From positions 3,745,501 through 3,809,500 of the forward strand of contig NZ_AKVN02000001.1 of NCBI RefSeq assembly GCF_000271485.2: 64,000 nt of DNA. Direction: 5' to 3'. The DNA is from Pelosinus fermentans DSM 17108 (GTDB taxonomy: Bacteria; Bacillota; Negativicutes; DSM-13327). Shown piece after piece: positions 4,285 to 55,678 of the stretch. The notes below the pieces were generated by a model. The model ran no database searches and was not told the origin of the DNA. It was given only the letters and a program-made list of their open reading frames with translations. The position numbers were made by a program, and so were the translations under genes. The stretch's first letter is position 1; the number at the start of each line of letters is the position of its first letter.

Positions 4285-4478
4285 AACAGCCGCCTCCCGT
4301 ACGTTAGAAACCCACTATTTACTTCTATGATGATATCGTAAAAAATATACCAATCTCTACATAAAACCCTTAGCAATAAATTATTTTTTATTTTTCTTCA
4401 AAATATGACATAATTCGCCCTTTTTATATGGTATCATTTTGTTTTAATACTACAATTATTTTTATTTTCTTAAATTAT

Positions 4479-4562
4479 ATATTGGCAAACTTACTGAAAG
4501 GTAAGGACGCAAAGCTATAGGGTCTAAGGATTTATAATCTATGATCGCCACGCTGCATATGA
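4479..4562 (+). promoter_or_regulatory. c-di-GMP-I (GEMM) riboswitch
   Basis: The run GGCAAAC..AAGG..GGACGCAAAGC..GGGTCTA...GATCGCCACGCTGC follows the GEMM-I consensus (GGCAAACC..GGGACGCAAAGCC..CCTA..GGTAGC). The conserved G that distinguishes c-di-GMP from cGAMP sensing appears to be G here. A terminator follows eight bases later and then an HD-GYP gene, so the switch should control a c-di-GMP-degrading enzyme. Confidence 0.87.
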
Positions 4563-4569
4563 TGAAAAG

Positions 4570-4603
4570 CTTAACTGCCTCATATCTGCGGTTAAGTTTT
4601 TTT
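4570..4603 (+). terminator. Terminator of the c-di-GMP riboswitch
   Basis: A 9-bp stem CTTAACTGC/GCGGTTAAG (one G-U pair) is followed by TTTTTTT. It sits between the aptamer and the HD-GYP gene and is the probable expression platform. Confidence 0.85.
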
Positions 4604-4677
4604 GTGTGATTTCTCTTCATCGTATATACTAACAGGCATGTATTGCTGATTTTTTTGAAAATAAAGGAGCTCTCATT

Positions 4678-5742
4678 TTGCGACAGATTAGGTTAACGGA
4701 AGTACACCCAGGTATGATATTAGCACGAAACCTTTACAGCAGAAAAGGACATATCCTGCTTGCTTCAGGAGTCAGGCTAACGGAAGTCTACCTTCACAAG
4801 TTACGAAGGTTGAAAGTAAAAACTCTCTTTATTCACGACGAAAGATATGAAGATATAGCGATTCCAGAATATTTATCTGTAGAAACTCAGCAACGGGCCT
4901 TCTCTATATTAAGTTCCACTATGGAAAAAATTCATAATAAAGAAGCCTTTGCCATAGACGATATCAGTTCTATTGCCTCTGATATCGTTGAAGAATTAAT
5001 TATTCAACCCGCCATAAGCATCCAATTAACTGGAATTGCAACTCATGATGACTACACCTTAGATCACTCCTTAAATTGTGCTATTTATGCTGCTCTATTG
5101 GCTCATTCTTGTAGTTTTTCCATTCCCCAAATCAAAGAAATCACCTGTGGTGCCCTGCTTCACGATGTCGGTAAAATGAACGTCGATAAAAAAATTATCA
5201 ATAAACCGGATCGCTTAACAGAAAAAGAATTTGGCATCATTAAGCAGCATCCACAATCTGGATTTAATTTATTGGTGAAAAAACGCTGGGAGCTGTCAAG
5301 CCTTGTTGCTCACATGGCATGGCAGCATCACGAAAAAATAGATGGCACAGGATACCCGCGAGGACTCCAGGGTGAAGAAATTCTAAATTATGCTCGTTTA
5401 TTGGCAATTACCGACGTATATGAAGCGATTACAGGGTGCCGCCCATACCGTAAAGCTATGAATTTGGAAGAGGCATATGATATTATTCGCTCTGGTTTAG
5501 GAACTGCTTTTGACGAGCATTTCGGCAAAATATTCTTATCTAAAATGGCCTTATATTTTCCAGGAATGGAGGTCCTGCTAAATACAGGAGAAAAGGCTAT
5601 TGTCGTCTCCTTATTGGAGCATACCCCTCGTCAGCCGATAATCCGTCTTATTGCCTACCCTGATGGAACCGCCTATTCCCCGCCTATCGAAATTAACCTG
5701 GCAGAAAATTCTCATCTTTCCATTGTAAGCACATCGATATAA
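4678..5742 (+). CDS. HD-GYP domain c-di-GMP phosphodiesterase
   Basis: A 354-residue cytoplasmic protein starting at TTG (AAAGGAG eight bases upstream). Residues 1-60 form a DUF3391-like N-terminal module (EVHPGMILARNLYS). A canonical HD-GYP domain follows at about 115-300: HSLNCAIYAALLAH, GALLHDVGKM, QHPQSGFNLL, and QHHEKIDGTGYPRGL with the GYP signature intact. About 50 extra C-terminal residues form beta structure. HD-GYP enzymes hydrolyse c-di-GMP to pGpG or GMP. With a c-di-GMP riboswitch and terminator upstream, the gene looks feedback-controlled by its own substrate. It has no membrane segment or receiver domain. Confidence 0.9.
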   Translation: MRQIRLTEVHPGMILARNLYSRKGHILLASGVRLTEVYLHKLRRLKVKTLFIHDERYEDIAIPEYLSVETQQRAFSILSSTMEKIHNKEAFAIDDISSIASDIVEELIIQPAISIQLTGIATHDDYTLDHSLNCAIYAALLAHSCSFSIPQIKEITCGALLHDVGKMNVDKKIINKPDRLTEKEFGIIKQHPQSGFNLLVKKRWELSSLVAHMAWQHHEKIDGTGYPRGLQGEEILNYARLLAITDVYEAITGCRPYRKAMNLEEAYDIIRSGLGTAFDEHFGKIFLSKMALYFPGMEVLLNTGEKAIVVSLLEHTPRQPIIRLIAYPDGTAYSPPIEINLAENSHLSIVSTSI

Positions 5743-6757: not shown

Positions 6758-7846
6758 TTATACTGAATACATCTGCGCTTCTTCTTCGCCTCGAATTACT
6801 CTTAAAGTTCCAAATGCCAATGCTTCTAGCTCTTCTTCTCCTGGTATTACAATTACAGGAGCAATAAACTGCACTCGGCTTTTAATAGCGTTAACAATAG
6901 GTTCTGAATGAGCAATTCCCCCAGTTAGAATAATACACTCCACTTGACCTGACAATACAGCAGCCATTCCCCCAATTTCTTTTGCTACTTGGTAGGAAAG
7001 AGCTTCCAATACCAAGCTAGCCTCCTCATTTCCATGAGCGGCCATAGAAAAAGCTTTCCGAATATCGGCAGTACCAAGATAAGCATACATTCCACCTTTA
7101 TGATTGAGTATCTCTTTTAATTCATCAAAGGTGTAAGTACCAGAAAAAGCAAGTCTTAAAAACTGTCCTACCGGCAGCCCCCCACAACGATCAGGAGAAA
7201 GAGGTCCCTCCTCTTTCGGATTATTGACGTCAATCATTCTTCCCAGCTTGTGAGGTGTTACAGAAATTCCTGTCCCTAAATGAGCCACAATCAGATTCAT
7301 CTCTTCATATTTTTTCCCAAGCTGCTTTGCTACTTTACGAGCTACAGCCTTCGTATTTAATGCATGGGACAAGCTAATCCTTGGCAAATCAGGCAGACCG
7401 GATATCCTTGCCACAGGTTCCATCTCATCCACGGAAACAGGATCTACAATATAGGAAGGAATTTTTAAAAATTCGGCTAACCCATAAGCCATGACAGCCC
7501 CTAAATTAGAAGCATGTTCACCTCTTTTAGCTTCTCTTAAATCATTCACCATCTCTTGAGTAATTTCATAGGTTCCGCCTTTAAGAGGCTTTAATATCCC
7601 CCCACGGGCTGCAACTGCATTAAATGTAGAAAGGTCAATCTTTTCTACTGCTAATTGTTCTAAAATAATTCGTAAACGATACTCATACTGATCTAACAAT
7701 TTCACAAATGGGCTGGTGTCGGCAGCAAAATGTTCCACAGTCCTTTTGATAAGCAGCGTTTCTCCATCATATACAGCAAATTTTGTAGAAGTTGCTCCAG
7801 GGTTAATCACTAAGATTCTCTCTTTTAACAGGCAATTATCAACCAT
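6758..7846 (-). CDS. buk: Butyrate kinase
   Basis: A 362-residue member of the ASKHA acyl kinase family, normal length for butyrate kinase. It has ILVINPGATSTKFAVYDG at the start (phosphate 1 motif), SLSHALNTKAVAR, NLIVAHLGTGISV, IDVNNPKEEGPLSPDRCGG, and ECIILTGGIAHSEP (adenosine motif). It transfers phosphate from butyryl phosphate to ADP. It is first in a buk-ptb operon on the minus strand; clostridial operons usually have ptb first. The start ATG has GGAGGGGG a few bases upstream, and an inverted repeat covers the leader at 7867-7910. Confidence 0.93.
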   Translation of the reverse strand: MVDNCLLKERILVINPGATSTKFAVYDGETLLIKRTVEHFAADTSPFVKLLDQYEYRLRIILEQLAVEKIDLSTFNAVAARGGILKPLKGGTYEITQEMVNDLREAKRGEHASNLGAVMAYGLAEFLKIPSYIVDPVSVDEMEPVARISGLPDLPRISLSHALNTKAVARKVAKQLGKKYEEMNLIVAHLGTGISVTPHKLGRMIDVNNPKEEGPLSPDRCGGLPVGQFLRLAFSGTYTFDELKEILNHKGGMYAYLGTADIRKAFSMAAHGNEEASLVLEALSYQVAKEIGGMAAVLSGQVECIILTGGIAHSEPIVNAIKSRVQFIAPVIVIPGEEELEALAFGTLRVIRGEEEAQMYSV

Positions 7847-9567: not shown

Positions 9568-9600
9568 CATAAGAATTCAAATGATCTCACAACCAGCAAT

Positions 9601-9763
9601 GCAGATAGCACTCCATCCAACTTGGATGACAGTCTTGCACTTATTCAATACAAAACCAATAAACGGGTCTTGCCAAACCCTTCTACTTCGGCGGATATTC
9701 CTTTTTGCATCTTTCATCGCTGGCAACTCCAGATACATATTCTTAATATACCGCGCCTCTATC
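9601..9763 (-). promoter_or_regulatory. Lysine riboswitch (L box)
   Basis: The minus strand reads GATAGAGGCGCGG, AAGAATATGTATCTGGAG, GATGAAAGATGCAAAAAGG, CCGCCGAAG, ATTGAATAAGTGCAAG, then GACTGTCATCC..GGATGGAGTGCTATC. Element by element this follows the L-box consensus. High lysine should favour the downstream terminator and reduce lysA expression. The short plus-strand open frames over this region are not genes. Confidence 0.94.
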
Positions 9764-9792
9764 TTATCTTTATTTATTTTGTTATTTTTATA

Positions 9793-14251: not shown

Positions 14252-14271
14252 TACTTTCATCAACTACATAC

Positions 14272-14377
14272 ATTCATCAAGAGTTAGCCGAGGGGATTGG
14301 CCCGATGAAGCTACGGCAACCACCGCGCAATGCGAACGGTGCCAATTCCAACAGGAATTTCCTGGGAGATGAGGATC
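14272..14377 (+). promoter_or_regulatory. SAM-I riboswitch (S box)
   Basis: The region reads ATCAAGAG, GAGGGGATTGGCCCGATGAA, CTACGGCAACC, CGGTGCCAATTCC, and GGGAGATGAGGAT, the ordered blocks of the S-box aptamer. A terminator follows. High SAM should switch off the aminotransferase-metQ operon. An open frame through the element is not a gene. Confidence 0.95.
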
Positions 14378-36045: not shown

Positions 36046-36909
36046 TTATTTTTTTAATTTTGTAACAGGTACAAATCCATTTTTCTCAGCATATGTTTCT
36101 TGGAACTCTTTGCTAGTCACATAATCAATAAAGGCTTTTACTGCACCAGTAGGTTCCCCTTTTGTAAACATACGACCAAAGGTATATACTGGGTAGCTGC
36201 CGTTAACAACGTTCTCAATGGAATATTTCGCACCATTATAAGACAAGCCTTTTACACTTTGATCCACATAAGCAGCATCTACATAACCAATGGAACCAGG
36301 AGTGCTTGCAATCGCAGATCTTACAGCACCATTTGAATCTTGAATAACAGCATTATCAGTGAAATCAGCATTTTTAAGTACTACTTGGGCAATCGTTGCA
36401 CGGGAGCCAGATGACTTTGCACGATGAACTAACGTAATTTTTTGATCTTTACCGCCTACATCTTTCCAGTTGGTAATTTTACCAGTCATAATGTCCACAT
36501 ATTGTTGTTGAGATAAATTGTCTACGGTTACGTCACTATTCACAATGAATACAAATGGAATTCCAACCAGTTGATGCTCAACAAGCCCTTTATCTTTCAA
36601 GCTGTCTTGTAAGGCAACATCAGAATTACCAATATTAACTGATCCTGCAGCAACTTGATTCTGTCCGGTAAAAGAGCCGCCGCCTGCGATATTCACCGTT
36701 ACTTTGTCATATTTCTTTTGGAATTCTTCCTGTCCAGGTTTTAATAAAGGAAGCAACGCTGTCGAACCAGATGCAGTTACTGTTCCTTGTACATCCGCAG
36801 CCGCCTTAGGAGCTGCTTCTTTTGTACCGCCACAGCCAGCCAGCAAACTAACACCCAGCATTAAAGACATCGCCGCTACAAGTATTTTAGACTTTTTTAC
36901 TAATTTCAT
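36046..36909 (-). CDS. pstS: Phosphate-binding lipoprotein, PstS family
   Basis: A 287-residue exported protein. It has the lipobox LLAGC (Cys about 26), then VTASGSTALLPLL (phosphate loop, Ser/Thr), AGGGSFTGQNQVAAGSVNIGNSDV in the next loop, and HRAKSSGSRATIAQ (Arg/Ser ligands). It delivers phosphate to the Pst ABC transporter. pstC, pstA and pstB are not adjacent, so it is an orphan or second PstS. A three-repeat Pho-box-like element lies 63-90 bp upstream. GGGGGTC precedes the ATG by about nine bases. Confidence 0.9.
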   Translation of the reverse strand: MKLVKKSKILVAAMSLMLGVSLLAGCGGTKEAAPKAAADVQGTVTASGSTALLPLLKPGQEEFQKKYDKVTVNIAGGGSFTGQNQVAAGSVNIGNSDVALQDSLKDKGLVEHQLVGIPFVFIVNSDVTVDNLSQQQYVDIMTGKITNWKDVGGKDQKITLVHRAKSSGSRATIAQVVLKNADFTDNAVIQDSNGAVRSAIASTPGSIGYVDAAYVDQSVKGLSYNGAKYSIENVVNGSYPVYTFGRMFTKGEPTGAVKAFIDYVTSKEFQETYAEKNGFVPVTKLKK

Positions 36910-36971
36910 TATTTAATGACCCCCTGTAAAATTTACTATAGTTAAATTGTAAGGCAATATGAATGGAAATG

Positions 36972-36999
36972 TGTTAAGACATTGTTACGTTTATGTTAA
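36972..36999 (-). promoter_or_regulatory. Pho box upstream of pstS
   Basis: Read on the minus strand: TTAACA, GTAACA and TTAACA at an exact 11-bp pitch (plus-strand starts 36972, 36983, 36994). This is the Bacillus-type PhoP direct-repeat layout (TTAACA with 5-bp spacers). Confidence 0.78.
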
Positions 37000-37012
37000 A
37001 TCGCTTATGTAC

Positions 37013-38818
37013 TTAATCAATGCAGTAGCAACTCCGCCAAACTAATTTACACTTTTTTTTCACTGCACCAGCGGCTTCACCTAAATCAGCCGGCGTTTTG
37101 AATTTACATCCACAGCTTGTCACAACTGCGATGGATAAGGAAACAATAGGGTATTTTTCTTCTATCCCATGGCGGTTCTTAGCAACGATATATTCTATCT
37201 TTTGGTCCTTCTCGGTATAAAAGCCTCTAATCCGAACATCAAAGTAATCAATAATTGTCTGGCATAATGGCGCAACATTAACGCCATGTACAATGGCAAT
37301 GAAGTCATCACCACCAATATGCCCTACAAAGAATTCTGCAATAGCAGCACTTTTTAATTGCAATTGAATTAGCTGGGCTGTCATACATAAGATTTTATCA
37401 CCGTTATCAAAACCATACGTATCATTGTATGCCTTAAAATTATCCAAATCAAAGTATAATACGGAATAAGGTTCTTTTGATTCAATAATCTGCTGCAGTT
37501 TTTCTTCGATCAAAACATTCCCGGGCAAACCACTTAAGGGATTGCTATGTTTAGCCCGATTGATTTCTAACTGCGTCGTTTTCTCCAATAGCTGCCGCAC
37601 TGTAGTGATGCCATAATATTTTCCATATTGAGTCACCACGATATAGTCATACAGACTATCTTCATATCTGGCAACTGCCAATTTTGATACCTGCTCTAAA
37701 GGCATATCATAGTCCACAATTAATGCCTGATTATCCATCAGAGAGCCTACGGATCGCTTCATATAGACAGCGACTCCATATTGAGTTGCCAAATGCACTA
37801 GAAATTTATTCTTCATTAACAATCCTACTGGCACCTCTCCTTGAAGCAAGGTAATGCCCATAAGGTGAGGATTTTCATTAAAATATTCCAGGGCCTGACT
37901 ACCAGTAATTCCTTCTGGAAAGCCTGGATCACGCCTGCTAATCTCTCCAATAGGCATAGTCAAAGGAGAGTGAAAAGCCTCTTGTTTCTTCTGCTTGTTT
38001 TTTAAAATGATATTTTCTTTCACCAAAGAATGAATCGTTAAGAACTCCGCAGCCGGTCTTTGCAGCAAATACCCTTGACCATAGGGTATACCAATCTGAA
38101 TTAAAGTATTCAATTCATCAATGGTTTCAATACCTTCTGCAATAATTTTCATATTCATTACAACGGAAAATTCATAAAACGCCTTTATTAATGCCTGTTT
38201 TAAAGTATCTTTATCAATATCCCGCACCAAATCCATATCAATTTTTATAAACTGCGGTCTTGTCTCTGCTAGAAGCCGTAAGCCTGAATACCCTGCTCCA
38301 GTATCATCAATCGCAATTTTATACCCTTGGCTGGTATAATGATCTAGAACCTTGCGAAAGTTTTTGTAGTCAGCGATAGAATTTTTTTCTGTAATTTCAA
38401 AAATAATATTACTCAGGTCAAAATCCTGAGCTGCTACCATTTCCAGCGTGGCCCCTTTTTGAAAACGCTCATCGTTTATAATATTAGGATCAACATTAAT
38501 AAATAGCATCATATCTCTGGGTAATTCTTTAACCCTGGCCAACGCTTTACTTCTGCAAAGAAACTCTAACTCCCACAATTTATTAAACTTCTCTGCAGCT
38601 GCAAATAAATCATCTGGCCGCTCTAAAGCTGAACCTTGTGGTCCACGACTCAAAGCCTCGTAACCAATAACATTCCCATCCAGCAGAGAAACAATTGGCT
38701 GAAAAACAGCCTTAATGTCTTTGTTATTTAGAATTTTTTCCAATTCACTGCAGCCACTCTCTCCCCATTGTGTGTATTGGTGTTCTTGAACTAGCTGATT
38801 ATATAGCACAGCTGGCAT
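37013..38818 (-). CDS. EAL-CBS-GGDEF c-di-GMP turnover protein
   Basis: A 601-residue soluble protein with three parts. An EAL phosphodiesterase domain (about 25-270) has GYEALSRGP (Glu54), FINVDPN, EITEKN, AIDDTGAGYSG, IKIDMDLVRDI, AEGIET and QGYLLQRP, so its catalytic set looks complete. A central pair of CBS-like motifs (about 300-420) may bind a nucleotide. A C-terminal GGDEF domain has YFDLDNFKAYND and IGGDDF (about 502-506, Asp in place of the last Glu). Order and make-up suggest the GGDEF part may regulate the EAL part. GGAGG lies nine bases before the ATG. A Pho-box-like triple repeat is 74-101 bp upstream, placing it with pstS and phoH. Confidence 0.88.
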   Translation of the reverse strand: MPAVLYNQLVQEHQYTQWGESGCSELEKILNNKDIKAVFQPIVSLLDGNVIGYEALSRGPQGSALERPDDLFAAAEKFNKLWELEFLCRSKALARVKELPRDMMLFINVDPNIINDERFQKGATLEMVAAQDFDLSNIIFEITEKNSIADYKNFRKVLDHYTSQGYKIAIDDTGAGYSGLRLLAETRPQFIKIDMDLVRDIDKDTLKQALIKAFYEFSVVMNMKIIAEGIETIDELNTLIQIGIPYGQGYLLQRPAAEFLTIHSLVKENIILKNKQKKQEAFHSPLTMPIGEISRRDPGFPEGITGSQALEYFNENPHLMGITLLQGEVPVGLLMKNKFLVHLATQYGVAVYMKRSVGSLMDNQALIVDYDMPLEQVSKLAVARYEDSLYDYIVVTQYGKYYGITTVRQLLEKTTQLEINRAKHSNPLSGLPGNVLIEEKLQQIIESKEPYSVLYFDLDNFKAYNDTYGFDNGDKILCMTAQLIQLQLKSAAIAEFFVGHIGGDDFIAIVHGVNVAPLCQTIIDYFDVRIRGFYTEKDQKIEYIVAKNRHGIEEKYPIVSLSIAVVTSCGCKFKTPADLGEAAGAVKKKCKLVWRSCYCID

Positions 38819-38891
38819 AACAGTGTTCCTCCATATTCAAATGATCTTATTTCCACCTTATTTATATAGTAAAGAACTGGAGCTTTATTTA

Positions 38892-38919
38892 TGTTATGCA
38901 ATGGTTATTTTTATGTTAA
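38892..38919 (-). promoter_or_regulatory. Pho box upstream of the EAL-CBS-GGDEF gene
   Basis: Plus-strand hexamers TGTTAT, GGTTAT and TGTTAA begin at 38892, 38903 and 38914, an exact 11-bp pitch, in the same orientation and nearly the same distance from the start as at pstS. The middle repeat is the weakest. The divergent kinase gene at 39007 could share it. Confidence 0.65.
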
Positions 38920-39006
38920 ACTTGGGCCTTTCTTATTTTTTTTTCATAGTCAATCTATCTCTTTTATTGTATGATTTTTCTAGAATACATTTGTCAGGAG
39001 GCAACT

Positions 39007-40782
39007 ATGTTTAAATGGGGTATAAAACTACGATTGACCATTAGCTACCTCTTATTAATCTTATTTACCATGCCAGCATTAAGCGGCTATCTTCTTTGGT
39101 ATTTCTATCAGCATAATCTAGAAATTTTAACCTCCAGCTTATTAACCCATGCTCATGTTACCGAACATTTTTTAGAAAACTATATGGCAGGTCCCAATGA
39201 AAAATTCCAGATTGACCAACGCATCAAAGAATTGGCTACAAAAACAGATTTGCGTGTTACTGTCATTAATCATACTGGCGATGTACTTGCTGATTCTTGG
39301 GAAAATCCAGCTACTATGGAAAATCATCTGGAACGGCCAGAAATAGCTTCTTCACTCACTGGACAGGAAGGATCATCCATTCGTTATAGCAGCACCTTAG
39401 GGCAAAACATGTTATACGTTGCCATTCCCATACGAAATGGCAACGAGATTGTAGGTGCCGTCCGCATCTCCAGTACTCTGGCAGCCATTGACGCTGGATT
39501 TAATCAGATTAAGTCCACACTTCTTATCGCCATCTTATTAACTTCTTTATTAGCCATTCTGCTCAGTATTTGGTTAGCCAGAAAATATACTGCACCTTTG
39601 GAAGAAATCACCGCTGCTGCCTGTGATATTGCAAATGGCAATTTAGATCGCCGCCTCCATGTACGAACCGGCGATGAGTTAGAACTGCTGGCTCACACTC
39701 TTAATAATCTAACCTCAAATTTAGATGATAAAATCAACGAAACCATTGCTGAAACAAAAAAACTGGATCTCATCTTACAACATATGGACAATGCTGTTAT
39801 TCTCCTTGACCGCTATGGAAAAATAACCACAGCCAATAAAATGGCCAGAGATATTTTTGACATTAAAGATGCTATGCTCAATCAGCATAATATGCAGGTT
39901 CTTGGTTACAGCCAACTTGACCGCGGGGTACAGCAAACTGCTAAACAAGGAAAAAGTATGCTGATCTATCTCAAAACCAATATTCATAGCAGCATAAGGG
40001 TCTTTCAAATATTTATTGCCCCCATTACTACTACAGAAAATGAAATTACTAGTATATTAAGTGTGTTCCACGATATTACCGCTCTGCAGGATATGCATGA
40101 CCGTCAATCTGATTTTGTTGCTAATGCTTCTCATGAGCTGGCAACACCACTTACAACGATCAAAGGATTTGCAGAAACATTATTAGATGGCGCCTTAGAA
40201 GATAGCAAGCTGAGCTTTAAATTTCTTACAATTATCCATACAGAAGCGGAAAGAATGCAGCGCTTGGTGAACGAACTCTTACAATTGGCAAAACTGAACT
40301 CTCATGAATACCGGCAGCAAGTCAAGCTAAAAGCGACCCATGTAACGCCTCTTCTCTACACAGTAAAAGATGATCTTAGAACCAATGCAGAAGAGAAAAA
40401 AATCACTGTAGATATTCAGGCGGATGCTGATCCTATTGTTATGGCCAACCCTGACTGGCTAAAGCAGATCTTAATTAATCTTTTGGATAACAGCATCAAA
40501 TATACACCACCTCTAGGCAAAGTACTGCTAACGTGTCTTCAGGAAGACCATGAAGCGATACTTATCGTTGAAGATACGGGTATCGGTATTCCAGCTACTG
40601 ATGTACCGTTAATCTTTGATCGCTTTTATCGCGTTGACCGGGCACGATCTCGTAATGCAGGCGGCACAGGCCTAGGACTGGCGATAGTAAAATTTATTGT
40701 TGAAATGCATGGCGGTAAGATTGAAGTAAAAAGTTCCGTCAACATCGGCACAACCTTTACCATTCGCCTACCACTAGCCTAA
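39007..40782 (+). CDS. PhoR-like sensor histidine kinase
   Basis: The ATG at 39007 has AGGAGG seven bases upstream; an in-frame ATG at 38971 does not. The 591-residue protein has a transmembrane helix at about 10-32, an extracytoplasmic sensor of about 135 residues, a second helix (about 170-192), HAMP, a PAS domain (about 255-360), then HisKA with FVANASHELATPLTTIKGF and a HATPase domain (NLLDNSIKYTPP, DTGIGIP, GGTGLGLAIVKF). The PAS plus the VANASHEL box are typical of PhoR. No response regulator gene is adjacent. Position amid Pho-box genes supports phosphate sensing, but a PhoR function is inferred. Confidence 0.82.
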   Translation: MFKWGIKLRLTISYLLLILFTMPALSGYLLWYFYQHNLEILTSSLLTHAHVTEHFLENYMAGPNEKFQIDQRIKELATKTDLRVTVINHTGDVLADSWENPATMENHLERPEIASSLTGQEGSSIRYSSTLGQNMLYVAIPIRNGNEIVGAVRISSTLAAIDAGFNQIKSTLLIAILLTSLLAILLSIWLARKYTAPLEEITAAACDIANGNLDRRLHVRTGDELELLAHTLNNLTSNLDDKINETIAETKKLDLILQHMDNAVILLDRYGKITTANKMARDIFDIKDAMLNQHNMQVLGYSQLDRGVQQTAKQGKSMLIYLKTNIHSSIRVFQIFIAPITTTENEITSILSVFHDITALQDMHDRQSDFVANASHELATPLTTIKGFAETLLDGALEDSKLSFKFLTIIHTEAERMQRLVNELLQLAKLNSHEYRQQVKLKATHVTPLLYTVKDDLRTNAEEKKITVDIQADADPIVMANPDWLKQILINLLDNSIKYTPPLGKVLLTCLQEDHEAILIVEDTGIGIPATDVPLIFDRFYRVDRARSRNAGGTGLGLAIVKFIVEMHGGKIEVKSSVNIGTTFTIRLPLA

Positions 40783-40823
40783 GACAATTACACCTACTTT
40801 TGATCAAATGGGAATAAAATAGC

Positions 40824-40904
40824 GAAACGCGAAGACGCGAAGAAATACAAAGAGCACGAAGAACATCATGTTTATTCTTCGTGTTCTTTGTATCTTCGCG
40901 TTTC
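40824..40904. repeat. Intergenic hairpin repeat, GCGAAG dialect
   Basis: Arm 1 (GAAACGCGAAG, CGCGAAG, ACAAAGAGCACGAAGAA) pairs with arm 2 (TTCTTCGTG, TTCTTTGTA, TCTTCGCGTTTC) with a small internal loop. It is placed between the tandem kinase and phoH genes. Confidence 0.85.
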
Positions 40905-40951
40905 AAATATTTTTTTTACAAACAGATTAGCAATTTCTGCTTAGCAAAAAT

Positions 40952-40979
40952 TTAATCTATTCTTAATATATTCCTAACG
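40952..40979 (+). promoter_or_regulatory. Pho box upstream of the PhoH gene
   Basis: Plus-strand hexamers TTAATC, TTAATA and CTAACG begin at 40952, 40963 and 40974, again at 11-bp pitch, 65 bp before the gene start and pointing towards it. It is less perfect than the pstS box. Confidence 0.6.
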
Positions 40980-41043
40980 TAGTGTTATTTTGTAAACTTT
41001 ATAATGAGAGAGAGAATACTTTTCTCAATAAAGGGGGATTACG

Positions 41044-42429
41044 TTGAAGAAATATTATGTCTTAGACACTAATGTTCTATTACACTCTCCAAATGCCCTG
41101 TACGCTTTTAATGAGCATACGATTGTAATTCCTGAAGTCGTGATTGAAGAACTGGATAAGTTTAAAAAGGAATCAACAGAACGTGGCACCAACAGTCGCA
41201 GTGTCAGTCGCATTATCGATAGTCTGCGCACACAAGGCAATTTACTAAAAGGAGTCCCCATCAATAACAGTGGTGGAATTCTCATCTTAGAATCCAATCA
41301 TACTGCCACTGCCATGCCGCTTCACTGGGAAGGCGATAAAGCCGATAATCGTATTTTGCAAGTTTGCAAAGGACTGGCAGAAAGCGGTCACCAAACTATT
41401 TTAGTGAGCCGCGATACGAATATGCGTGTTAAATCTTCCATTTTAAACATTCAAGCCGAAGACTTTCGCAATGATAAAGTTTCAAATATAGACCAGCAAT
41501 ACACGGGACGTATAGTTGCCTATACCTCTAGTGAAGTAATCAATCGCTTCCACGAAAGTACAAATCATTCTATTGACCCTGATTCTCTTTATGTTTTTGA
41601 CGATCTGGCAGGTATCTTAATTCCTGCAGCCCTGGTTACTAATCAATTCCTGCTAATACGGTCAACGGACAATGATCGTCATACCGCATTAGGCCGTTTT
41701 GATGGAAAGAAAGTCATTCACTTGCAATATCAAAATCGCAATCCCTTTGGAGTCACCCCTCGAAATGTCGGCCAGATTTTCATGCAAGAATGCCTTATGA
41801 TGAGTGCTGAAGAAGCACCTTTAGTCATATTAAAAGGTATGTCTGGAACTGCTAAAACCTTTTATGCCTTAGCAGTCGGACTTTACAACTATATGGAGTG
41901 CCGCCCGAGGGAATATCACCACATTCTGATATGTCGCCCAAATTCAATGCTGGATGAGGGAATTGGCTTTCTCCCTGGAACAGAAGCCGAAAAAATCGAA
42001 CCCTATATGCGGGCTATAAAGGACAATTTATTTACATTAATGTCAGGTAACGCATCAATGGAAGATAAAGATGTACTGCAAACGGAAGATACGGTGAATA
42101 TGCTATTTGAAAAGCGTGTTATTCAAACAGAAGCATTGGCGTATCAAAGAGGCCGGTCACTGCAAAAATACTGGGTTATTTTTGATGAAATGCAAAATGC
42201 TACCCCACGTCAAGCAAAGGCTGTATTAACCCGCCCTGGCCTGGGTACTAAAATCATACTCATTGGTGATCCAGCCCAAATTGATAATCCACTGCTGGAC
42301 AGCCAGTCAAACGGCTTAAGCTATGCCAGCGAAAAAATGATTGGATCGGAACTATGCTTTCAGGTAACCATGCTGCCTGAAGAATGCGAGAGATCTCCTT
42401 TGGCAGCAGAAGCGGCTATGAGACTGTAA
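41044..42429 (+). CDS. PIN-PhoH (PhoH2-type) ATPase
   Basis: A 461-residue fusion starting at TTG (AAGGGGGAT upstream). Residues 1-140 form a PIN ribonuclease domain with the acidic set in YYVLDTNVLLH, EVVIEELDKF, DKADNRILQ and LVSRDTNMRV. Residues from about 230 form a PhoH RecA-like domain with Walker A GMSGTAKT (commonly GxAGTGKT) and Walker B-like WVIFDEMQNA, then IGDPAQIDNPLLD. PhoH2 proteins are reported as RNA-unwinding nucleases. phoH genes are classical members of the phosphate-starvation regulon, which fits the Pho-box-like element upstream. Confidence 0.9.
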   Translation: MKKYYVLDTNVLLHSPNALYAFNEHTIVIPEVVIEELDKFKKESTERGTNSRSVSRIIDSLRTQGNLLKGVPINNSGGILILESNHTATAMPLHWEGDKADNRILQVCKGLAESGHQTILVSRDTNMRVKSSILNIQAEDFRNDKVSNIDQQYTGRIVAYTSSEVINRFHESTNHSIDPDSLYVFDDLAGILIPAALVTNQFLLIRSTDNDRHTALGRFDGKKVIHLQYQNRNPFGVTPRNVGQIFMQECLMMSAEEAPLVILKGMSGTAKTFYALAVGLYNYMECRPREYHHILICRPNSMLDEGIGFLPGTEAEKIEPYMRAIKDNLFTLMSGNASMEDKDVLQTEDTVNMLFEKRVIQTEALAYQRGRSLQKYWVIFDEMQNATPRQAKAVLTRPGLGTKIILIGDPAQIDNPLLDSQSNGLSYASEKMIGSELCFQVTMLPEECERSPLAAEAAMRL

Positions 42430-54709: not shown

Positions 54710-54934
54710 ATAATTGAATAAGCCCCAATTTGTCAATCAATCTCCCTTAAGAATACTGGGTTCAATGTTCATTTTTTAATATAAAATAGTATTCTCAATT
54801 AAAAACCACTGGAAAAAACACATGCTAACTTTGAAATATCTCCATTTACTTCAACTTTTTTACTTGGTATGATGGTAAATACATTGATTAATTTTCGATA
54901 TTATGAAAGCATATCGCAGAAAGAAGGTTTGTTA

Positions 54935-55678
54935 TTGAAAAAAATTGCTATCTATGGGAAAGGCGGTATTGGGAAATCCACGACAGTGTCCAATGTAGCA
55001 GCGGCTATGGCCTGTATGGGGCTCCGTGTGATGCAAATCGGCTGCGACCCTAAGGCTGACTCTACCCGCAACTTAACAGGTGGACAGTCCATTCCAACAG
55101 TGCTGGATGTTTTGCGACAAAAAGGTGACGCCATGTTGAGCGATTTCTTAGTAGAAGGAGCTTGCGGCGTTTTTTGTGTGGAAGCCGGTGGACCAGTTCC
55201 GGGGGTAGGCTGCGCGGGGCGCGGTATTATCACTGCCTTTGAAAAACTAGCGGAATTAAACGCATTTGAACACTATAAGCCAGATATTGTACTTTATGAT
55301 GTACTAGGAGATGTTGTTTGCGGTGGTTTCGCCATGCCGATCCGCGGGGGCTATGCCGATGAAGTCTGCATCGTCACCTCCGGAGAAATGATGTCGCTGT
55401 ATGCTGCTGCCAATATCACTCAAGCGGTCAAAAGCTTTGGAAAACGTGGATATGCCACACTCCGCGGGCTAATCCTCAATGCTAAAAACATTGACAACGA
55501 AGAATCTTTAGTCGCACAGGCTGCAAGTGAAATGGATACGCAAATTCTGTATCATCTCCCACGCGACCCACTGGTCCAGCAGGCAGAAGCACAGGGTAAA
55601 ACTGTGACGGAGGCTTTTTCATCTAGCCCTATGGCCGTGCATTATCAAACCCTAGCGGCTCTTTTATTGGAGGATTAG
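54935..55678 (+). CDS. Nitrogenase-like reductase component (NifH/BchL/CfbC superfamily)
   Basis: TTG at 54935 is taken as start (AAGAAGG seven bases upstream; protein [16 protein letters not shown]). In-frame starts further upstream would add an unrelated tail. The 247-residue protein has the P-loop GKGGIGKST (about 8-16), switch [11 protein letters not shown], the first cluster cysteine in GVGCAGRG (Cys93, with Arg96), and switch [14 protein letters not shown] with the second cluster cysteine (Cys129). Both ligands of the bridging 4Fe-4S cluster are therefore intact, and it should work as an ATP-driven one-electron donor to the D-K-like pair encoded downstream. Without nifB, nifE or nifN it is not a true nitrogenase reductase. 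Confidence 0.92.

Follow-up and report, generated by a model that had tools for sequence, protein, structure and literature searches.

Sequence analysis of a predicted Pho-type promoter that may place a cyclic di-GMP phosphodiesterase gene of Pelosinus fermentans under phosphate control

In Pseudomonas fluorescens Pf0-1, RapA is a Pho-box-controlled phosphodiesterase for cyclic diguanosine monophosphate (c-di-GMP) that depletes this messenger at low phosphate (PMC3032545). Pho boxes consist of 11-bp direct repeats that are bound head-to-tail by an OmpR-family regulator, as described for Escherichia coli PhoB and similarly for Bacillus subtilis PhoP (PMC4415409). Here, we analyzed a stretch of 64,000 nucleotides of the Pelosinus fermentans DSM 17108 genome (hereafter the window), in which a gene for an EAL-CBS-GGDEF protein is the immediate upstream neighbour of pstS, with the same orientation, and is preceded by a predicted Pho box. 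The locus resembles rapA in combining a c-di-GMP phosphodiesterase gene with a Pho box, here predicted from sequence, and it shares the tandem direct repeats of 11-bp units with the boxes of B. subtilis PhoP and E. coli PhoB. It differs from rapA in its EAL-CBS-GGDDF architecture, its TTAACA-type box, and its position beside pstS, and from the PhoP and PhoB boxes in its three repeats, the fixed 20-bp spacing to the -10 element, and the TTAACA consensus. RapA, whose host is gammaproteobacterial, is a functional precedent.

We consider it likely that a phosphorylated PhoB/PhoP-type regulator activates this c-di-GMP phosphodiesterase gene under phosphate limitation and would thereby lower c-di-GMP. 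Such a connection would tie phosphate sensing to c-di-GMP directly, and in a way open to testing, through a protein family found across anaerobic Bacillota, and phosphate hunger is predicted to shift the signal that decides between sitting still and swimming. A literature search for the TTAACA string together with PhoP and the Pho regulon found nothing. Titles and abstracts, covering few subscription papers, likewise contained neither a phosphate link of the EAL-CBS-GGDEF family nor a Pho/c-di-GMP link in Clostridium or Negativicutes. Relative to RapA, a Pho-regulon c-di-GMP phosphodiesterase in Bacillota is therefore provisionally new, in another phylum and with another architecture.

Three-repeat boxes and a fixed -10 spacing

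The original prediction had described three TTAACA-like hexamers at 11-bp pitch upstream of pstS, the EAL-CBS-GGDEF gene, and phoH, and both the coordinates and the exact pitch were verified in all three triplets. Scored as matches to three copies of TTAACA (maximum 18), the box of pstS (36972–36999, minus strand; TTAACA-N5-GTAACA-N5-TTAACA; hexamer starts 36972, 36983, and 36994) reaches 17, that of the EAL-CBS-GGDEF gene (38892–38919, minus strand; TTAACA-N5-ATAACC-N5-ATAACA; starts 38892, 38903, and 38914) reaches 15, and that of phoH (40952–40979, plus strand; TTAATC-N5-TTAATA-N5-CTAACG; starts 40952, 40963, and 40974) reaches 13. The consensus was derived from the window sites and then confirmed in the genome. 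All repeats point at their genes as claimed; the distances from box end to start codon, given earlier as 63–74 bp, measure 62 bp (pstS), 73 bp (EAL-CBS-GGDEF), and 64 bp (phoH). The pstS and EAL-CBS-GGDEF boxes are the two top-scoring sites of the window on either strand. Since the phoH score is at chance level (25 window sites reach 13 or more at 11-bp pitch) and a genome scan allowing up to three mismatches yielded 60 matches versus 64 for a reversed-pattern control, i.e., no excess, the hexamers alone are insufficient for the EAL and phoH sites. By this measure, pstS is the only site clearly exceeding the genome noise.

A feature that the original prediction had missed settles this point: the -10 elements of pstS (TACAAT; 36946–36951, minus strand), the EAL-CBS-GGDEF gene (TACTAT; 38866–38871, minus strand), and phoH (TATAAT; 41000–41005, plus strand) each begin exactly 20 bp past the third hexamer, and we regard the EAL and phoH sites as genuine on the strength of this sequence feature. 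The spacing was first spotted at the three window sites and then checked at others from the hexamer scan. Outside the window, it recurs at pstC (TACAAT), a PhoA-type phosphatase gene (CATAAT), two phosphonate operons (TATAGT and TATACT), and a gene resembling monogalactosyldiacylglycerol (MGDG) synthase genes (TATAAT); in total, eight promoters, which together belong to a coherent set of Pho genes, combine the 11-bp pitch with the 20-bp spacing. An extended pattern (three TAAY at 11-bp pitch, 21 nt, and TANNNT), designed after part of its sites had been viewed, gave 13 exact matches in the whole genome versus one for the reversed control, and 77 versus 7 over eight genomes of the genus. With the spacing off by one (an extra N), a single genome match was left. 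The genome contains six full EAL genes, of which only the EAL-CBS-GGDEF gene of the window has an exact match. Because the pattern was built on sites partly seen before, the cleaner test comes from a matrix whose training set excluded the sites of the EAL gene and phoH; it scored them at 20.7 and 27.3 bits, respectively, whereas simulated sequence totalling 10 Mb gave 18.8 bits at best. The pstS box lies within the 103-bp gap between the EAL-CBS-GGDEF gene and pstS, and owing to this same-strand arrangement, some read-through from the EAL gene into pstS is possible.

Regulon context and conservation of the EAL box

The motif was expected at further Pho genes of this genome and was indeed found there: besides pstS (36046–36909, minus strand; a phosphate-binding protein, TIGR02136, 212 bits, above cut-off), the full motif precedes pstC-pstA, an alkaline phosphatase gene (PF00245), 2-aminoethylphosphonate uptake and breakdown operons, in which PhnW and phosphonatase exceed their cut-offs, and MGDG-synthase-like glycosyltransferase genes. 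The phoH-family gene of the window (41044–42429, plus strand) has a PIN-PhoH arrangement (PF13638 and PF02562). Two MGDG-synthase-like genes with Pho-type promoters are located at G000:C1:1416263 and 4978776 of the genome, which suggests that glycolipids replace phospholipids at low phosphate. A PhoB-like regulator gene lies outside the window beside pstB and phoU, with no kinase gene adjoining it there.

The EAL box could be aligned in all eight genus genomes. One of them, G009, has lost exactly 11 bp, i.e., one repeat, and its remaining two repeats are still in register. In the other seven, 79% of the box columns are invariant, compared to 26–33% in the flanks, and the -10 region of the EAL gene (TTCTTTACTAT) is 100% invariant. 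The pstS Pho box recurs at pstS in genus genomes, and the EAL boxes of the sister genus score 16/18. In other Sporomusales, two genes, one of them MGDG-synthase-like, lie upstream of the EAL gene, and a box precedes this cluster in two of three loci (L068 with N20 TACAAT; L066 weaker). In Sporomusa KB1, the EAL gene neighbours genes that carry Pho boxes.

Beyond these relatives, 561 homologous stretches of the EAL-CBS-GGDEF gene were found in GTDB genomes, of which the best 80 were used; 59 of these, with 36–55% identity, form the distant set. A three-repeat score of at least 14 was reached upstream of 20 of the 59 distant homologues versus 21 of 414 other genes of these loci (odds ratio 9.6, Fisher p = 1.4e-9, the p value, uncorrected for phylogeny, being indicative, as species are non-independent and the set was drawn from the top 80 of the 561). 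The excess is confined to a pitch of 11 and absent at 7–10 or 12–16, and in the group with 40–50% identity, it exceeds that of shuffled sequences by 13.7 standard deviations. Top-scoring control genes are, by sequence reading, mostly Pho genes themselves (pstC, phoB, pstS, alkaline phosphatase, and one MGDG-synthase-like gene). Near-consensus -10 elements of 22 distant boxes peak at 20–21 bp; minor peaks occur one repeat off, at 9 and 31 bp. Several distant homologues are located among pst, phoB, ppk, phoH, or phosphatase genes, and some follow lipid-glycosyltransferase genes that have a Pho box. On a tree of the homologues, the box is scattered over several clades of Bacillota with at least nine changes. 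That distant Clostridia share the box suggests that the design is old or was selected more than once, and is not a species quirk.

A possible but less secure extension is that Pho control of an EAL-CBS-GGDDF phosphodiesterase forms a widespread, long-conserved arm in Bacillota (Negativicutes and several Clostridia), in which phosphate would set transcription and nucleotides bound by the CBS and GGDDF domains would tune activity, thus coupling phosphate, nucleotide pools, and c-di-GMP.

Proposed mechanism and competing explanations

The EAL-CBS-GGDEF gene (37013–38818, minus strand) encodes 601 amino acids with an EAL domain (172.7 bits) and a GGDEF domain, and the protein shares its domain order, EAL catalytic set, and GGDDF sequence with its family homologues. 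All EAL catalytic residues (E54, N108, E141, D171, D172, K192, E228, and Q248 in the numbering of the window protein) are present, each being conserved in 69–70 of 70 homologue rows. The fourth residue of the GGDEF signature is not E, and the protein thus departs from the canonical GG(D/E)EF of diguanylate cyclases; GGDD is found in all 70 aligned rows, with the last F varying in four, so that GGDD in place of GGDE is a signature of the whole family. Between the two domains, the CBS region, examined for a tandem CBS pair, yields one weak Pfam match (22.7 bits, cut-off 24), and matches to PDB relatives are confined to the EAL part. From these features, we infer that the phosphodiesterase is active and that its CBS domain and its non-canonical GGDDF domain probably have regulatory roles.

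In the proposed mechanism, low phosphate would cause a PhoR/PnpS-like kinase to phosphorylate the PhoB-like regulator, which would bind the 11-bp repeats head-to-tail just upstream of the -35 region and activate sigma-70-type transcription from the -10 element placed 20 bp downstream; more EAL-CBS-GGDEF phosphodiesterase would then mean less c-di-GMP. The early steps draw on established Pho biology and sequence evidence, and the last step on the EAL residues; regulator binding, phosphate induction, enzyme activity, and the net sign of the c-di-GMP change are predictions. The kinase of the window and the pstB-linked PhoB-like regulator are presumed to be partners, and activity may be tuned by the CBS domain (nucleotides) and the GGDDF domain (possibly GTP). 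As the genome holds ten c-di-GMP-I riboswitches, one of them in the window before an HD-GYP gene, many genes would sense it if c-di-GMP changed.

Several observations weigh against this model. The kinase gene (39007–40782, plus strand; Cache-HAMP-PAS-HisKA-HATPase), which had been pointed out as PhoR-like and does encode a sensor histidine kinase of the PhoR/PnpS/WalK type among these genes, is divergent from the EAL gene and is called PhoR/PnpS-like only, since its NCBIfam score for PnpS stays below cut-off (395.9 versus 400), as does that for PhoR (290.5 versus 334.2). The best NCBIfam family of the regulator is PhoB (TIGR02154), again below cut-off (276.3 versus 296.2), hence our term PhoB-like. 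On the tree, the box is absent from a Lachnospiraceae-rich clade (except L123) and from proteobacterial homologues. Moreover, 11-bp TAA-type repeats are shared among OmpR-family regulators, and RND-type and porin loci fit the loose pattern, although the matrix rejects them. One could argue that the boxes belong to another OmpR/PhoB-family regulator, e.g., a WalR-like one, and that the genes answer a different stress: many winged-helix regulators use 11-bp repeats, and the top NCBIfam match of the kinase is WalK (431.6 bits, cut-off 725). We regard this as very improbable, given that the full motif marks genes of phosphate metabolism (pstS, pstC, PhoA-type phosphatase, phosphonate uptake, phoH, and MGDG synthase) and that distant genomes show this consensus ahead of pstC, pstS, phoB, and alkaline phosphatase genes.

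The EAL box sits in the divergent space between the EAL and kinase genes, and it might instead serve autoregulation of the kinase gene, either activating or repressing it, with the EAL gene as a bystander. The box lies 87 bp upstream of the kinase start codon, the intergenic stretch next to the kinase gene is conserved too (68% invariant columns in the genus), and a Pho box has been described for the B. subtilis phoPR operon (PMC4415409). Yet the repeats and the -10 element face the EAL gene, at the same 20-bp spacing as in pstS and pstC; a separate candidate promoter, albeit a weak one based on a consensus match only (TAGTCA-17-TATGAT; 38947–38975, plus strand), lies nearer to the kinase gene; and in distant homologues, the box remains with the EAL gene though a search of its neighbours detected no relative of the kinase gene. 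Together, these points make the bystander explanation unlikely. A more serious alternative, to which we assign a minor but real chance, accepts Pho control of the gene and holds that its product increases c-di-GMP or works as a nucleotide-gated sensor, without a starvation-driven fall. The GGDDF domain could synthesize a nucleotide instead of binding one, and the invariance of GGDDF, DxD, and other core residues in all 70 homologues indicates a domain under selection. Against this stand the complete EAL domain and the non-canonical fourth residue of the GGDEF signature. We thus favour Pho-driven production of a phosphodiesterase, with c-di-GMP most likely falling, given an intact EAL site and a GGDEF signature altered to GGDDF.

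Further observations in the window and genome

An element of ~15.5 kb with a tyrosine recombinase is inserted inside the pstC Pho box (G000:C1:4266414-4281994; L041:6415-6442, L042:6967-6994), which is uninterrupted in the relatives G004 and G009. The 18-bp shared core (TAACAATCCCTTAACAAA) is part of the pstC box, and the end of the element contributes TTAACAAAACCG, by which the three-repeat Pho box of pstC is rebuilt. At G000:C1:4297980 (L200, L260), an HD-GYP gene (HDIGK, HHERMDGSGYP) has a Pho-like box with matrix scores of 13.8–18.6 bits that is conserved in most genus genomes, making it a possible second Pho-linked phosphodiesterase gene. A loose motif match (matrix 9.5 bits) lies 86 bp before a UgpB-like solute-binding gene (G000:C1:4543346, L201; 136 bits, below cut-off).

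Three further locations with TTAACA-like sites (dps, the space between ppk and ppx, and the porin cluster) do not show the fixed -10 spacing, and these sites were rejected as Pho boxes; the porin-cluster site, where overlapping TTAACA repeats lie between SLH-domain porin-like genes (L043:5170-5208, 6889-6927), has a low matrix score as well. Close to RND-type and kinase genes (G000:C1:4005708-4005771, 4002085, 4002635), TAATCT-like units form arrays with an 11-bp pitch, which are probably sites of another OmpR-family regulator; the TAATC arrays near the RND-type genes fit the loose pattern and were rejected as Pho boxes at a matrix score of 3.3 bits.

At 4474–5742 (plus strand), the c-di-GMP-I riboswitch of the window (68.8 bits) directly precedes an HD-GYP/NosR-like c-di-GMP phosphodiesterase gene, and the two likely form a feedback loop. 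Further riboswitches of the window are those for cobalamin (247–427), lysine (9598–9769), and S-adenosylmethionine (14271–14375). A NifH-like gene (54869–55678) scores under both the nifH and CfbC cut-offs and therefore possibly encodes another nitrogenase-like reductase.

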